A stretch of 64,000 nt of DNA from Variovorax sp. RA8 (GTDB taxonomy: Bacteria; Pseudomonadota; Gammaproteobacteria; Burkholderiales; Burkholderiaceae_C), in assembly GCF_901827175.1 (NCBI RefSeq), contig NZ_LR594665.1, positions 1 through 64,000 of the forward strand, given 5' to 3'. Under the pieces are notes generated by a model. It did no database searches, was not told the origin of the DNA, and worked only from the letters and a program-made list of their open reading frames with translations. The translations under genes were made by a program, and so were the position numbers. This document shows positions 38,598 through 63,387 of this stretch, piece after piece; position 1 is the stretch's first letter, and every line of letters begins with the position of its first letter.

Positions 38598-38642
38598 TGA
38601 CAGATGAGGGGCGCAGCGGCGGCATGCAGACACTTGAGGGGC
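38598..38642 (+). repeat. Two orphan TrfA iterons downstream of trfA
   Basis: TGACAGATGAGGGGC at 38598-38612 and AGACACTTGAGGGGC at 38628-38642 match the oriV iterons 24 kb away (and the same TGACA..TGAGGGGC core). In RK2 isolated iterons also lie outside oriV and can aid copy control. Their start-to-start distance is 30 bp. Confidence 0.85.
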
Positions 38643-39002
38643 CAAGCCAGGGACGGGGAATTTTCGCGGGCGCGAAAACCGGCTATGTCGTGCTGCGCAT
38701 CGAGCCACGTTCCGCGTCTCGACCCCTGCGGGCTTCCAGCGCCTTTCCGACGCTCACCGGGCCCATGCCCCTCGCCGCTGGGCTACAGGCCCGCCAGCGG
38801 GCCATACGACCGCCGCAAGCGGCCATCCAAGGCCGACCGATCCCTGCCCGGGGGCCAGGTGTGACTTCCAACGATCAACCCGACTGGCGCCGCACTTAAA
38901 CGGCAGGTTTCCAGGTTGCCCTCGACTGCCGCACAAAACTGCGGACGACTGTTTGCTTTACCCCTCGGCACGCAACTGTCCAATGTGTTACGTTATAAGG
39001 TT
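38643..39002. other. Intergenic region before the restriction gene
   Basis: 360 bp without a convincing gene. The last part is AT-richer, with GTTATAAGG (38991-38999) as a possible -10 just before the restriction gene. The centre has GC-rich segments resembling those beside oriV (compare 38767-38800 with 63585-63720). No terminator or operator was recognised. Confidence 0.4.
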
Positions 39003-40022
39003 ATGGCAAAAAAACCAAAAGACATAACGCCACGATTCGGGATCGGGGAGTGGTTCGGCTTCAATCTGACGCAGCTTTCCGGGGAGGAACGCCGCCAGCT
39101 TGCCGCCGAAGTCCTCAAGCCGAAGAAAGAGCGAACCCCACAACCCTGCCCCTTTCAGGCGCGCAAAACAGGCGCTGTCTGCTCCAAGGATGGCGGGGTG
39201 TGTTCGCTCCGGCTCTACTCCTACAACACACACCCAGACAACGGCCGGGCGGTCGGTGTCCCTGTTGAGGGCAAGCAAGGCGACCTCCGCGCCACCTGCC
39301 CCTATCGCTTCCACGATGAACTCGACGTGTTCAAGTGGGTAGGCGAAACCATCCTTGGCGACCCTGACCCGCTGCTGGTCGGTGAAGTCGGCTTCCTCGA
39401 AGCCGGGGCATCGACCGACAGCGAAGGCGGCGATGACGTGGGCCGAATCGACATGGTTCTGGTCAGCTCCAAGACGCCCAAGGAAGCCCCGATGAATTGG
39501 GCTGCCCTTGAGATTCAGGCCGTCTATTTCAGCGGTAACGCCATGAAGGGCGAGTTTGAAGCCTTCAACGATGACGCCGTGGATTGGGTCATTTTCCCGG
39601 CCGGTCGTCGTCGCCCGGACTACCGCAGCAGCGGCCCCAAGCGCTTGATGCCGCAGCTTCAAATCAAAGTCCCCACGCTGCGCCGTTGGGGCAAGAAGAT
39701 GGCCGTGGTCGTTGATCGCGCCTTCTTCGATTCCATCGGTGAGATGGACAACGTGGCCGACATATCCAATGCTGACATTGCATGGTTTATCGTCCGCTTT
39801 GAAGAGGTCGAAGGCCAGAAGCGCACGCGCATCGTGCGGGATGAAGTCCGCTACACCACGCTTGAGCGCTCGGTGGAAGGGCTGACGGGTGGCAAGCCGG
39901 TTCCTCTGCCGGTGTTTGAGACTCGCATCACTGACAAGATCGTTCACCCGGTGCCCATCACTGAGCCGGTCGAGGACGGTCTGCCGCTTGAGAACGGCAA
40001 CGGCTCCGACGCCGCAAAATGA
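39003..40022 (+). CDS. NotI-like restriction endonuclease
   Basis: A 339-residue protein with the fold signature of the NotI family. Four cysteines near the N-terminus (CPF about residue 40, C 49, C 55 and TCPYRF about 99) resemble the Fe-Cys4 site of NotI. LEIQAVYFSGN (about 167-177) supplies the Glu-x-Gln catalytic motif, preceded by an acidic DVGRIDMVL segment. It is followed 99 bp later, on the same strand, by a DNA adenine methyltransferase, the expected partner. The ATG at 39003 is preferred to one 29 codons upstream. Recognition sequence unknown; the NotI similarity is remote and judged by eye. Confidence 0.7.
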   Translation: MAKKPKDITPRFGIGEWFGFNLTQLSGEERRQLAAEVLKPKKERTPQPCPFQARKTGAVCSKDGGVCSLRLYSYNTHPDNGRAVGVPVEGKQGDLRATCPYRFHDELDVFKWVGETILGDPDPLLVGEVGFLEAGASTDSEGGDDVGRIDMVLVSSKTPKEAPMNWAALEIQAVYFSGNAMKGEFEAFNDDAVDWVIFPAGRRRPDYRSSGPKRLMPQLQIKVPTLRRWGKKMAVVVDRAFFDSIGEMDNVADISNADIAWFIVRFEEVEGQKRTRIVRDEVRYTTLERSVEGLTGGKPVPLPVFETRITDKIVHPVPITEPVEDGLPLENGNGSDAAK

Positions 40023-40047
40023 CCACAAGTTGCTTGTTTGACAAGAC

Positions 40048-40110
40048 CGTGAACATTCACGGGTCTTGACGCGCCTATACGTCCTTGTTACGCTCCGTGA
40101 ATGTTCACGG
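40048..40110 (+). promoter_or_regulatory. Methyltransferase promoter with paired palindromic operators
   Basis: Two 16 bp palindromes, CCGTGAACATTCACGG (40048-40063) and CCGTGAATGTTCACGG (40095-40110), with identical 7 bp arms, bracket a promoter: -35 TTGACG at 40066-40071 and a weak -10 around 40087-40093 (TTACGC). Centres are 47 bp apart. A dimeric repressor on both could shut the promoter. The candidate repressor is the N-terminal domain of the methyltransferase itself. Confidence 0.8.
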
Positions 40111-40121
40111 AGAAAATAACA

Positions 40122-41150
40122 ATGACAACCGACGCCACTGCATTACAACGGCAGAACCGCCGCATCGAACGCCTGAAAGAGCAAGGCGTCACCCGCGCCA
40201 CGGTACTGGTTCACAGCGAATGCAAACCGGCCCTTGAAGGGCTGCGGCATCACTTCGTTGACCCCGACAAAGCGCAGGCGCTGGCCTCACTGGTTGAACA
40301 ACTCCACGACAAGAAAGCCCCGACGAACGTTGCGCAGGTTCGCCAGCTCAGTCCGTTCCGCTATCCGGGCGGCAAGACGTGGCTTGTCCCAGAGGTGCGC
40401 AAGTGGCTGACGGCATCCAAGATCACGCCATCGGTGTTTGTGGAACCCTTCGCGGGTGGAGCAATGGCGGGCCTGTCGGCCGCCGCTGAGGGTTTGGCCG
40501 AACACGTCTTTCTGGGCGAACTGGACGACGATGTGGCCGCTGTCTGGCAAACCATCTTCCACGGCAAGCCCGCTGACGTGAAGTGGCTTTGCAAGCAGAT
40601 CATCGACTTCGATGTGAACCTTGAGAACGTCCGGGAGATCCTCGACGGCAACCCCAAGAGCATTCGCGGCCGGGCCTTCCGAACCATCGTCAAAAACCGG
40701 ATGCAGCGCGGCGGCATCATGGCCGCAGGCGCTGGCCTCGTTAAGACCGGAGAGGCCGGGCGCGGCCTCAATTCGCGCTGGTATCCCGAAACGCTGGCCC
40801 GTCGCATCGAAGCCTTGCAGGCCATGCGCGATCGGATCACCTTCGAGCAGGCCGACGCCTTCGAGGTGGTGCAGCGCTACGCTGATGATGCCAATGCGTT
40901 CTTCTTCGTTGATCCGCCGTACACCGCAGGCGGCAAGAAGGCCGGGGCACGGCTCTACACCCACAACGAAATCGACCATGAAGGGCTGTTCGCGCTCATG
41001 GCCTCGGTGCGTGGTTCAGTGATGCTGACCTATGACGACGCGCCCGAAGTGCGCTCGATGGCAGAGCGTCACGGCTTCCGCGTTGAGCCGGTGCCGATGA
41101 AGAACACCCACCATGAAGTCATCCGCGAGCTGTTGATCTTGAAGCCCTAG
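40122..41150 (+). CDS. D12-class N6-adenine DNA methyltransferase with N-terminal regulatory-like domain
   Basis: A 342-residue Dam-type methyltransferase. Motif X FRYPGGKTW (about residues 77-85), the AdoMet motif FVEPFAGGAMAGL (about 106-118) and catalytic DPPY (about 264-267) are all present. The first ~65 residues (RIERLKEQGVTRATVLVHSECKPALEGL) are not part of the catalytic core and look like a ribbon-helix-helix domain, so the enzyme may repress its own promoter through the paired palindromes just upstream. The ATG at 40122 follows GGAG; an upstream ATG lies inside the operator. The stop codon is followed two bases later by the IS1071 end. Confidence 0.85.
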   Translation: MTTDATALQRQNRRIERLKEQGVTRATVLVHSECKPALEGLRHHFVDPDKAQALASLVEQLHDKKAPTNVAQVRQLSPFRYPGGKTWLVPEVRKWLTASKITPSVFVEPFAGGAMAGLSAAAEGLAEHVFLGELDDDVAAVWQTIFHGKPADVKWLCKQIIDFDVNLENVREILDGNPKSIRGRAFRTIVKNRMQRGGIMAAGAGLVKTGEAGRGLNSRWYPETLARRIEALQAMRDRITFEQADAFEVVQRYADDANAFFFVDPPYTAGGKKAGARLYTHNEIDHEGLFALMASVRGSVMLTYDDAPEVRSMAERHGFRVEPVPMKNTHHEVIRELLILKP

Positions 41151-41152
41151 TT

Positions 41153-44100
41153 GGGGTCTCCTCGTTTTCAGTGCAATAAGTGACGGTACGCAAAGCTAGC
41201 ACTGGCGCGGGGGTGGTCTGGGTAGACCGTTGATTTCATTGACTTTCCTGTTCGCTTTGTAAACGGGTATGGTGGCCTCCCACTTTTGAGGTTCACGATG
41301 CAGGGTTGGCACACAACGTTTTTGTGGATGCGTGGGCTCCCCCGCGATATCAGCGACTTCGAGATGAAGGCATTTTTCACCTTCGATGGTGCCGAGCGCG
41401 ACGCAATCAATGCACGCCGAGGTGATTCCCACAAGCTTGGTCTGGCGCTCCATATTGGTTTCCTGCGCATGAGTGGGCGTTTGCTCGGTGCCTTTCGGGT
41501 AATTCCAGTAGCCTTGTGGCGCCACCTTGGCAACGAGCTTGGCATTGCAGCACCAGAAGTCGCCTCGCTGAGAGCCATGTATGAACGCGGGCGCACGCTA
41601 TTCGATCACCAACAAGTAGCCTGCACGGTCCTTGGATTCCAGTGGATGAGCGAGCACCAGCGCCGCTCACTGGTACGTGAACTGCGCGACGAAGTGGCGC
41701 GCTGCGCCGACCGCGATCAGCTACTCGTGCGGGCGCGTCAATGGCTGTACAAGAACAAGCTGGTGATCGTGCACGAGCGGGCAATTCGGACACTGATTGC
41801 GGCGGCACTTGCCCAGCTTGAAGTTGAAACAGGCACCGCCATCGCCGCCAGCGTTGATCCAGCAACACTTGATCGCTGGCGAGCCTCAGTTTCAGAGCTG
41901 CGCCCAGATGGACAAACCCAGCAGAGTTGGCTATGGGCTGCACCGGCGAAACACTCAACCCGCCAAATCAGCGAGGTACTGGAGCGCATCGACCTGCTTT
42001 ACACGCTGGACGTTCATAAGCACCTGGCAGACATCCCCGATCTCATCTTGCGCCGCTACGCGCGCCGACTTGTCTCCAGGCCGCCCTCAGCCGGAGCCAA
42101 GATCAAAGAGCCAGCGCGCACCGTGGAGGTCGCATGCTTTCTTCGGTATTGCCTGTTCACCACCACAGACCAGTTGATCCTTATGGTGCAGCGCCGGATC
42201 GCCGATCTGTGGCGTCAGGCTGCCGCCGATGTCCCCGCTACCGTCAATTGGGCCGCAATGTACAAAACGCTGCTCGGCGAACTTGTTGCCTTGAGCGCGC
42301 AAGGTGCGGTGCCAGATGCTGAGTTGCGTGCCCGTCTTGAAGCCTTGATCACCGAAACCCAGAAACGCAAACCACCGAGCAGGGCCTCCCTGGTCCGCGA
42401 GGGATTGATTGATGGAATTCGCCCCGTGCGGTCGTTGCTCGTCGCCATTGCAAAGCTGCCCTGGCAGGCCACCGGCGAGCATCCTGCCATCGAGTACCTT
42501 GCCAAGCTGCAAGCTTTATATCTCAAAGGATCCAGAAAGCTGCCAGTTGAAGTGGTGGCACCAAGTCTGGGAATGATCTGGCAGGTTTCGATCTCCAGCC
42601 CAGACCGGGAACGGGCGTTTCAGGCGTTGGAGGTGGCCACCCTGTTTGCCCTGCGCCGCGCGGTGCGCAATGGCTCGGTCTGGATTGAGCACAGCCTGAG
42701 CTTTCGGGGTCGTGCGCGCTTGTTCTTCACGGACGAGCGTTGGCAGGCAGAGTCCAAGAAACACTATGCCCGTCTATCGTTACCCAGCAAGGCTGCCACT
42801 TTCTTGAAGCCTTTGCTGGCCAGAGTAACTGCCGGTGTCGATGCGGTGGCCGCTGCAGCCCGCAGTGGCGTACTGCGCGTGGATGATGAACTCCATTTGT
42901 CGCCATTGCCCGCAGAGGACGAAGACCCAGAAGTGACCAAGCTGCGCGCGGCTTTGGATCACCGCATCGGTGAGGTTCAATTGCCGGAAGTGATTCTGGC
43001 CGTTGACGCCCAGGTGCGCTTTAGCTGGATCATGCTCGGACGTGAGCCGCGCTCTACCGACGAGCTGCTGATGGTCTATGCCGGCATCATGGCCCACGGC
43101 ACCAGTCTGACTGCGGTCGAATGCGCGCGCATGATTCCGCAATTGTCTGCCACCAGCATTCGCCAGGCCATGCGCTGGGCGCGGGACGAACGGCGTCTGA
43201 GCCAGGCCTGCCAGGCTGTGCTGGAATTCATGCAGCGACACCCGATTGCCGCCACCTGGGGGCGGTCCGATTTGGCATCTTCTGACATGATGACCATGGA
43301 GACCACCAAACGGGTGTGGCAAGCCCGGCTTGATCCTCGGCGCAACACACCTTCCATTGGAATCTACTCCCATGTAAAAGACCGGTGGGGCATCTTCCAT
43401 GCGCAGCCCTTTGTGCTCAATGAGCGCCAGGCGGGCGTGGCCATTGAAGGTGTCATCCGCCAAGAAAAGCTGGAGACCAGCCAGCTTGCTGTGGATACCC
43501 ATGGCTACACCGACTTTGCCATGTCACATGCCCGTTTGCTTGGTTTTGATCTTTGCCCGCGGTTGAAGGAACTCAAACAGCGCCACCTCTTTGTGCCACG
43601 CGGCACCAAAGTGCCCGCAGAAATCGCTGCGGTGTGCGAAGCCAATGTCGACGTCGCTTTGATCGAAAAGCATTGGGATAGTCTGGTGCACCTGGCAGCC
43701 TCGGTCATGAGCGGACATGCCAGTGCGGTGGCAGCTCTTGCGCGGTTCGGTTCTGCCGCCCAGGGCGATCCAATCTATGAGGCTGGCGTGCAATTGGGGC
43801 GGTTGCTGCGTACGGCGTTTTTGGCTGACTACTTTGTCAAGGACGCTTTCAGGAACGAGTTGCGCCGGGTGCTCAATCGGGGCGAGGCTGTTAACGCCCT
43901 CAAGCGCGCCATTTATACCGGCCGGATCAGCCCGGCGCAGGCCAAACGTGTCGATGAAATGCAGGCTGTGGCCGATGCGTTGAGCCTGATGGCCAACATC
44001 GTGATGGCGTGGAATACCTCACAGATGCAGGCGGTCCTGGATCGCTGGTCGAACCGCCGCCAGGTCATTCCACCGGAACTGATCGGGAAGATTGCGCCCA

Positions 44101-44356
44101 CCAGGCTGGAGAGCATCAACTTGCGGGGTGTGTTTCGCTTCCCGGTTGACCGCTATGCTGACCAAATCCTGCCTTCGCGGCCAAATGCATCGATAACTGG
44201 CACCAATGGATGAAACCGACCACGGTTTGACGCCACGAATCGCAGATTTGAAAGTGAACAGGAAAGTCAATGAAATCAACGATCTACCAACACCACCTCC
44301 GCGCCAGTGCTAGCTTTTCGTACCGTCACTTATTGCACTGAAAACGAGGAGACCCC
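41153..44356 (+). mobile_element. IS1071 copy 1
   Basis: 3204 bp, complete, starting GGGGTCTCCTCG and ending in the reverse complement, with long terminal inverted repeats (about 110 bp) typical of IS1071. Flanks TAGTT and GATTA do not match each other. It lacks a resolvase, as usual for IS1071. Confidence 0.95.
41298..44213 (+). CDS. tnpA: IS1071 transposase TnpA, copy 1
   Basis: A 971-residue Tn3-family transposase starting MQGWHTTFL. It differs from the other two copies by one residue, Trp instead of Gly at position 10 (TGG versus GGG at 41325). The catalytic DDE domain appears intact. The ATG at 41298 gives the standard IS1071 length; a TTG four codons upstream is rejected. Confidence 0.95.
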   Translation: MQGWHTTFLWMRGLPRDISDFEMKAFFTFDGAERDAINARRGDSHKLGLALHIGFLRMSGRLLGAFRVIPVALWRHLGNELGIAAPEVASLRAMYERGRTLFDHQQVACTVLGFQWMSEHQRRSLVRELRDEVARCADRDQLLVRARQWLYKNKLVIVHERAIRTLIAAALAQLEVETGTAIAASVDPATLDRWRASVSELRPDGQTQQSWLWAAPAKHSTRQISEVLERIDLLYTLDVHKHLADIPDLILRRYARRLVSRPPSAGAKIKEPARTVEVACFLRYCLFTTTDQLILMVQRRIADLWRQAAADVPATVNWAAMYKTLLGELVALSAQGAVPDAELRARLEALITETQKRKPPSRASLVREGLIDGIRPVRSLLVAIAKLPWQATGEHPAIEYLAKLQALYLKGSRKLPVEVVAPSLGMIWQVSISSPDRERAFQALEVATLFALRRAVRNGSVWIEHSLSFRGRARLFFTDERWQAESKKHYARLSLPSKAATFLKPLLARVTAGVDAVAAAARSGVLRVDDELHLSPLPAEDEDPEVTKLRAALDHRIGEVQLPEVILAVDAQVRFSWIMLGREPRSTDELLMVYAGIMAHGTSLTAVECARMIPQLSATSIRQAMRWARDERRLSQACQAVLEFMQRHPIAATWGRSDLASSDMMTMETTKRVWQARLDPRRNTPSIGIYSHVKDRWGIFHAQPFVLNERQAGVAIEGVIRQEKLETSQLAVDTHGYTDFAMSHARLLGFDLCPRLKELKQRHLFVPRGTKVPAEIAAVCEANVDVALIEKHWDSLVHLAASVMSGHASAVAALARFGSAAQGDPIYEAGVQLGRLLRTAFLADYFVKDAFRNELRRVLNRGEAVNALKRAIYTGRISPAQAKRVDEMQAVADALSLMANIVMAWNTSQMQAVLDRWSNRRQVIPPELIGKIAPTRLESINLRGVFRFPVDRYADQILPSRPNASITGTNG

Positions 44357-63100: not shown

Positions 63101-63387
63101 TGACACTTGGGGGGCGTTCATTGACACTTGGGGGGCAGAGTACCCCGGCGCACTGCAGACACTTGAGGGGCAAACGTCGGTTTTCAGCCTAGCCAGGCGT
63201 GGCCAAGTGCCTGCAAGCGCTCGCCGCGGTCAAGTTATGCACAGGAACTGTGCATAAGCCTGTGGAAAAGCCCGATTTCTATAGACACTTGAGGGGCGCA
63301 ACCCTAGACACTTGGGGGGCGGCTTCGTTGACACTTGTGGGGCCAACTACAGACATTTGAGGGGCGCACCCTAGACACTTGAGGGGC
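63101..63387 (+). repeat. oriV: oriV iterons (eight direct copies)
   Basis: TrfA-binding iterons of the form TGACACTTGAGGGGC start at 63101, 63122, 63157, 63283, 63306, 63329, 63351 and 63373: three, a gap, then five spaced 22-23 bp apart. Variants have GGGGGGC, TGGGGC or CATTTG. The five-iteron block next to the AT-rich region is the RK2 minimal oriV layout. The 110 bp gap holds DnaA-type boxes. Confidence 0.93.
63235..63257. promoter_or_regulatory. Inverted pair of DnaA-box-like sites in oriV
   Basis: TTATGCACA (63235-63243) and its reverse complement TGTGCATAA (63249-63257), one mismatch each to the DnaA box, in the position of RK2 oriV DnaA boxes between iteron groups. TGTGGAAAA follows at 63261. 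Confidence 0.75.

Follow-up and report, generated by a model that had tools for sequence, protein, structure and literature searches.

A NotI-family restriction-modification module on an IncP-1 plasmid with an adenine methyltransferase that probably represses its own gene

The contig of Variovorax sp. RA8 analyzed here (NZ_LR594665.1, the first 64,000 nucleotides of which we call the window) carries a two-gene restriction-modification module made up of a NotI-family endonuclease and a D12-class adenine methyltransferase. Judging from sequence comparison, it is very probably a mobile Type II module in which the protective methyltransferase also represses its own gene. A first-pass annotation of the window had proposed such a self-limiting methyltransferase with its own repressor domain, and the proposal gained strong support from the co-occurrence, across distant loci, of the enzyme's N-terminal domain with an operator-like palindrome at the putative promoter. 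The features are as follows (window coordinates).

39003..40022, + strand: NotI-family restriction endonuclease, 339 amino acids from ATG (PF12183)
40047..40062, no strand: operator-like palindrome O1, CCGTGAACATTCACGG, lying before the putative -35 element; some of the relatives have it too
40066..40071, + strand: putative -35, TTGACG, assigned by eye; TTGAC also occurs in the Aeromonas and other O1-bearing relatives
40089..40094, + strand: putative -10, TACGCT, assigned by eye; 17 bp from the -35 and abutting O2
40095..40110, no strand: operator-like palindrome O2, CCGTGAATGTTCACGG, over the expected transcription start
40122..40325, + strand: N-terminal domain of the methyltransferase (residues 1-68), proposed autorepressor; co-occurs with the palindrome
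40122..41150, + strand: D12-class (Dam-like) adenine-N6 DNA methyltransferase (PF02086, DPPY motif, Foldseek)

Palindromes and the N-terminal domain of the methyltransferase

Two 16-bp palindromes had been annotated around the methyltransferase promoter. Both were found exactly, as quasi-palindromes that are reverse complements of each other. The promoter between O1 and O2 is putative: its elements were recognized by eye and by their conservation, and a consensus promoter scan found none at its threshold. Exact copies of the 12-base core common to the two palindromes, CGTGAANNTTCACG, occur in the 7.42-Mb genome at O1 and O2 only.

The same arrangement recurs in relatives. In Aeromonas plasmids (93% methyltransferase identity) the intergenic DNA has largely diverged, while O2 is identical, O1 is one base off, and the -35 and the start region are retained. 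At locus L014 (G048), where the methyltransferase is 56-57% and the endonuclease 36% identical and the genes are convergent, a palindrome with the same arms, TGTGAACGTTCACG, stands 9 bases before the ATG. The layout that recurs in the upstream regions is O1 (where present), -35, spacer, -10, O2 and start, with an O1-O2 distance of 47-49 bp in 10 tabulated loci; the place of the -10 is kept and its sequence is variable. At the O2 place, the bacterial and plasmid loci that bear the N-terminal domain have at most 1/10 core mismatches, except L049, which has two. At the start of the NotI-family open reading frame (ORF), no match at ≤1/10 mismatches was found up to 600 bp upstream in 20 domain-bearing loci (the available L038 sequence does not reach the ORF start).

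To count domain and palindrome, we scanned one genome collection with three aligned methyltransferases of this kind as the query and used the 80 best loci. A palindrome was scored when GTGAANNTTCAC occurred at ≤1/10 mismatches within 420 bp before the catalytic core. It was present in 13 of the 14 domain-bearing loci, compared to 3 of the 66 others. Among these three exceptions, L041 has a frameshifted domain, and the N-termini of L043 and L044 look by eye like an eroded form of the domain; both loci have an imperfect palindrome in the customary position. Altogether, 26 matches to GTGAANNTTCAC lay within the 420-bp intervals, as compared to 8 in the remainder of 605 kb.

In a methyltransferase tree of 51 rows, 47 of them from the best 80 loci, the domain-bearing enzymes formed one clade (96/96, midpoint root). 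Nested in it at starred forks (97/90 and 97/85) are L046 and L050, which have no domain, no palindrome and no NotI ORF within the flanks examined. The same three elements are missing around a methyltransferase on a viral contig, L027 (68-69% identity; outside the tree). When viral contigs were searched with the palindrome alone, 76 stretches were obtained, four of which carry a domain-bearing methyltransferase. We count these four as one lineage because their overlapping methyltransferase DNA is identical; three have a NotI-family ORF and the fourth is truncated by the end of its sequence. The other 72 matches were dismissed as chance, as no such methyltransferase was present. The palindrome has been retained in phage DNA and at loci that carry the labels of several phyla, some of these being metagenome bins. 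On a Ramlibacter contig (L034:1-99), a sequence resembling the beginning of an IS91-like transposase (window 44307) stands in place of the N-terminal domain.

Within the N-terminal domain, residues R10, Q11, R14, R17, G22, R25, V30, H31, and L54 are invariant in all 14 aligned members. AlphaFold (15 sequences) predicted a helix at residues 5-20, an irregular stretch at 21-34, and helices at 35-45 and 48-63, with a mean pLDDT (predicted local distance difference test) of 65; the N-terminal part of the full-length model was similar and likewise of low confidence. The domain has an R-x-x-V-x-V-H segment and then two helices, an order of elements that is also that of the ribbon-helix-helix (RHH) fold, the strand of which requires a second subunit. 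The annotation had read the extension as such a domain. The predicted helix-extended-helix-helix succession is compatible with that reading, but comparison with known folds did not bear it out: no RHH Pfam model matched, Foldseek found nothing for the domain model, nor did VIA-align (one chain compared), and hhalign against 22 RHH_1 domains, the sole RHH family tried, gave a probability of 10.7% and an alignment out of register. The hhalign score was 17.0 compared to at most 13.9 in 60 column shuffles. By secondary structure, an RHH fold is plausible.

Other searches with the domain gave little. Helix-turn-helix (HTH) models had no match in the N-terminal domain of 16 members, and a sequence search of the PDB with the domain alignment had a best E of 0.49. 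Four of 14 members weakly matched PHROG 536 ("transcriptional regulator"), with E 0.015 at best, and a few unrelated Pfam names appeared at E 0.009-0.24. A search of 398 genomes with an E limit of 0.05 gave three clear matches to the domain, all of them domain-bearing methyltransferases; in 369 genomes at E up to 1e-6, only its own genome was found. Eight of the weak matches were translated. L221 lies opposite a long ORF that is glycosyltransferase-like by eye, and the only plausible small protein is L223 (E 0.0099), which matched no RHH Pfam model and had one more distant relative in 299 genomes.

The proposed self-repression and its alternatives

We infer from these data how the loop could operate. 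When the module enters a new host, methyltransferase would be absent, so that the promoter between O1 and O2 would fire freely and the DNA would become protected. With rising protein levels, the N-terminal domain would cover O2 at the transcription start and O1 beside the -35, probably with one dimer on each palindrome. With both occupied the promoter would be shut, and a drop in the methyltransferase level would lift the repression. The loop probably sets the level of the methyltransferase only, because there are no operator matches at the start of the endonuclease gene.

Several observations weigh against this proposal. Scans of the N-terminal domain against Pfam, NCBIfam and PHROGs gave nothing significant, which places it in no known DNA-binding family. 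The Fisher p of 2.4e-11 for the link between domain and palindrome ignores shared ancestry, the palindrome copy with two mismatches at L049 belongs to the fourteenth domain-bearing locus, and 4 of the 66 other loci have <300 bp of upstream DNA. In addition, O2 stands alone in six domain-bearing loci (L014, L039, L042, L045, L047, and L049), and the phage lineage (L137) has its one exact palindrome ~80 bp before the ATG, at the position of O1 rather than O2.

Three other explanations could be given for the palindromes, each of which is less likely than self-repression. They could be a host or plasmid regulator's sites, bound for instance by a protein of the CRP/FNR type, with the N-terminal domain serving otherwise; the GTGA/TCAC arms do resemble CRP-family half sites. 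A global regulator would have many sites, though, and the core is exact only here in the genome. The palindrome is also kept at loci of several phyla labels and in phage DNA and is gone from the nested relatives without the domain, and we consider binding by such a regulator improbable. A terminator or RNA hairpin that splits endonuclease and methyltransferase transcription is the explanation to which we give least credence. In its favor, the inverted repeat behind the stop codon of the endonuclease is perfect, but a terminator scan did not list the palindromes, their arms are kept in sequence beyond what pairing alone would call for, and 10 of the 14 domain-bearing loci are convergent, so that no endonuclease message enters the palindrome region.

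The remaining possibility is that the palindromes contain the target of the methyltransferase and that the gene is regulated by methylation of its promoter instead of by binding of the domain, as in CfrBI. They include adenines, and a shorter target embedded in them is possible. Promoter control by methylation exists, according to the parts of the literature consulted (PMC12707154, PMC3978073), and EcoRII repression requires methylated substrate sites (PMC12707154, in the part consulted); for this latter reason methylation may also have an influence on the system described here. However, the palindrome tracks the N-terminal domain and not the catalytic core: L046, L050, and L027 have a related core and neither domain nor palindrome. 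The 12-base core, with its two copies in 7.42 Mb, is moreover too rare for a restriction target. Control by methylation alone is, in our judgment, unlikely, and we retain self-repression through the N-terminal domain as the preferred explanation.

A second case may be found among relatives of a Verrucomicrobial type. In six members (L053, L058, L060, L072, L089, and L095) the N-terminus is of another kind and contains TTVIR[VI]P. Five aligned N-termini of this type matched RHH_1 in register by hhalign (77.8%), with a score of 25.5 compared to at most 18.1 in 60 shuffles; RHH Pfam models gave no match to them. In L053, L089, and L095, TTGAC is preceded by a palindrome, CCCTGTTACAGGG, with 0 or 1 base between them; the best 80 loci contain no further copy, exact or with one mismatch. 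L058 and L072 have a merely related sequence containing GTAACA (by eye), and L060, the contig of which begins at the gene, was left out. These relatives suggest that methyltransferase self-repression has arisen more than once. We would put at even chances a broader statement: that a hitherto undescribed class of self-repressing adenine methyltransferases serves NotI-family systems and arose at least twice, in the window's branch with GTGAANNTTCAC and a helix-strand-helix-helix domain of no known class and in Verrucomicrobia with an RHH-like domain and CCCTGTTACAGGG, and that the domain and its operator persist only as long as the endonuclease is there.

The two enzymes and their plasmid

The annotation had described an endonuclease with NotI-type cysteines in tandem with a D12 methyltransferase, 99 bp apart. 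Both ORFs and their Pfam matches agree with this description, and the gap runs from the endonuclease stop at 40022 to the methyltransferase start at 40122. The endonuclease matched PF12183 with E=3.2e-78 and 262.8 bits, compared to a curated cut-off of 22. An alignment of 18 family members, down to 28% identity with the window's enzyme, shows no variation at cysteines C49, C60, C67, and C99 or at D150, E170, and Q172; we take these to be the metal-site and catalytic residues of NotI. A sequence search matched no solved NotI chain to the endonuclease, and its family membership therefore rests on the profile and these residues. It is the one NotI-family gene in its own genome. RefSeq starts the gene of an identical plasmid at a TTG at 38916, while the start in plasmid pIJB1 is equivalent to 39003. 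In plasmid pEST4011 (L010:5001-6068), the gene has one extra A near its end relative to the window, and the annotated C-terminus is longer.

The methyltransferase has 342 amino acids in RefSeq (start at 40122) and 349 when read from an in-frame ATG at 40101. It matched PF02086 (MethyltransfD12) with E=1.9e-11 and 44.6 bits, compared to a curated cut-off of 22. In the 349-residue reading, the D12 domain extends from residue 88 to 322. About 75-80 residues stand before the core. The DPPY motif is intact at residues 264-267, and Foldseek found likeness of the model to MCBE1 (7m6b), Dam, and DpnM. From these matches we infer that both proteins are active as enzymes. The in-frame ATG (40101-40103) lies inside O2, 6 bases past the putative -10, at the expected transcription start; L038 and L039 have no ATG before the N-terminal domain other than the one at the equivalent position, so a leaderless message that starts inside the operator is possible.

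The pairing of a NotI-family nuclease with an adenine methyltransferase had been called uncommon, which did not hold for this family. We detected neighboring NotI-family ORFs within 300 bp by means of a custom profile built from six family members, and one adjoins the methyltransferase in 66 of the best 80 loci, which were selected by similarity to the window methyltransferase. With 66 of 80 loci paired, pairing is the rule within this sample. The orientations are tandem with the endonuclease first (47), convergent (14), tandem with the methyltransferase first (3), and divergent (2). Of the 14 loci without a NotI ORF, four start within 200 bases of the locus end. An endonuclease tree of 48 rows, from which the partial L038 and L041 were left out, hinted at partner exchange between lineages; we do not claim such exchange, as long branches meet there and the methyltransferase fork is weak.

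NotI's own site, GCGGCCGC, is free of adenine. If the methyltransferase is cognate, the site of the window's system must differ from it, and the endonuclease probably targets another sequence. On pBN5 (L004:3533-6344), an endonuclease 82% identical to that of the window adjoins a cytosine methyltransferase and a Vsr (very-short-patch-repair) gene. Close relatives may therefore be protected by modification of either base.

The module is carried by an IncP-1 plasmid. The contig measures 68,393 bp, with the window as its first 64 kb, and 38900-41300 is 100% identical, at the same coordinates, to plasmid 5 of Variovorax sp. SRS16 (NZ_LR594670.1), which was typed as conjugative with MOBP and MPF_T. 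The annotation's IncP-1 backbone beside oriV-type sequences was confirmed: trb genes and trfA are neighbors of the module, TrfA matches PF07042 (E=2.5e-163), and oriV-like iterons lie at 38598-38642 and 63101-63387 (11 matches at ≤3 mismatches compared to 2.0 expected). The two genes sit between trfA and an IS1071-type transposase (41286-44213). The same module is borne by pIJB1 and pEST4011, which we take to be IncP-1 delta plasmids. In a 4.0-kb Aeromonas plasmid with the module, MobC is the sole other annotated gene, such gene tables being incomplete. Metagenome bins labelled Thermaceae, Gallionellaceae, Ferrovum, and Alphaproteobacteria (L030-L033) hold near-identical modules, which may reflect recent plasmid transfer or misbinned plasmid contigs.

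Comparison with known restriction-modification systems

Among cytosine-5 methyltransferases, M.SsoII, M.Ecl18kI, M.EcoRII, M1.LlaJI, M.MspI, and M.ScrFIA repress their own genes, according to the part of PMC3978073 consulted. The same source attributes repression by SsoII to its N-terminal region, 71 residues before the catalytic domain, and describes a regulatory site, a 15-bp quasi-palindrome that is separate from the site of methylation; it reports that SsoII also stimulates the endonuclease, while EcoRII, LlaJI, MspI, and ScrFIA control only the methyltransferase. A review, in the part consulted, ascribes such control to an N-terminal HTH (PMC3874152). PMC9519451 presents PD-Lambda-5 as an RM+Abi system in a compacted form that occurs in prophages.

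A search for this specific module found nothing in the literature, and searches of open-licence full texts yielded no account of a repressor fused to an adenine methyltransferase. In the parts of the cited literature consulted, the autorepressing methyltransferases named are cytosine-5 enzymes, with an HTH where the domain is named (PMC3874152, PMC12707154, PMC3978073). If our proposal is true, the same control would operate on an adenine methyltransferase through a different domain, at loci of several phyla labels, on plasmids and in phage DNA, and it would explain how a broad-host-range plasmid carries a nuclease safely into new hosts. The small candidate DNA-binding domain has a candidate operator that is unique in the genome, and through the natural cases of loss, the connection of the domain with operator and endonuclease can be tested directly.

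Like the SsoII-type methyltransferases, the enzyme described here has an extra N-terminal domain and a palindromic operator at its own putative promoter. Unlike enzymes of the SsoII/EcoRII kind, its core is of the D12 and not the C5 class, and its N-terminal domain matches no HTH model. Here two operator-like palindromes flank the putative promoter and the endonuclease gene has no operator match, which is the pattern of EcoRII and MspI rather than that of SsoII. With NotI the module shares the profile, the four cysteines and D...E-x-Q, while the partner here is an adenine methyltransferase. In Type II systems with C proteins, a small DNA-binding module works through palindromic operators at the promoter of the module, as is proposed here, but in our case the domain is part of the methyltransferase; no separate controller gene is annotated between or beside the two genes in two Aeromonas plasmids, pIJB1, and pEST4011, the gene tables of which are incomplete. 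The best PADLOC match of the methyltransferase is PD-Lambda-5_B (E=2e-43), whereas the endonuclease matched no PADLOC model at E up to 1. Taken from sequence, these comparisons suggest that the module most likely follows the known logic of regulatory methyltransferases, here on an adenine methyltransferase with an unclassified domain.

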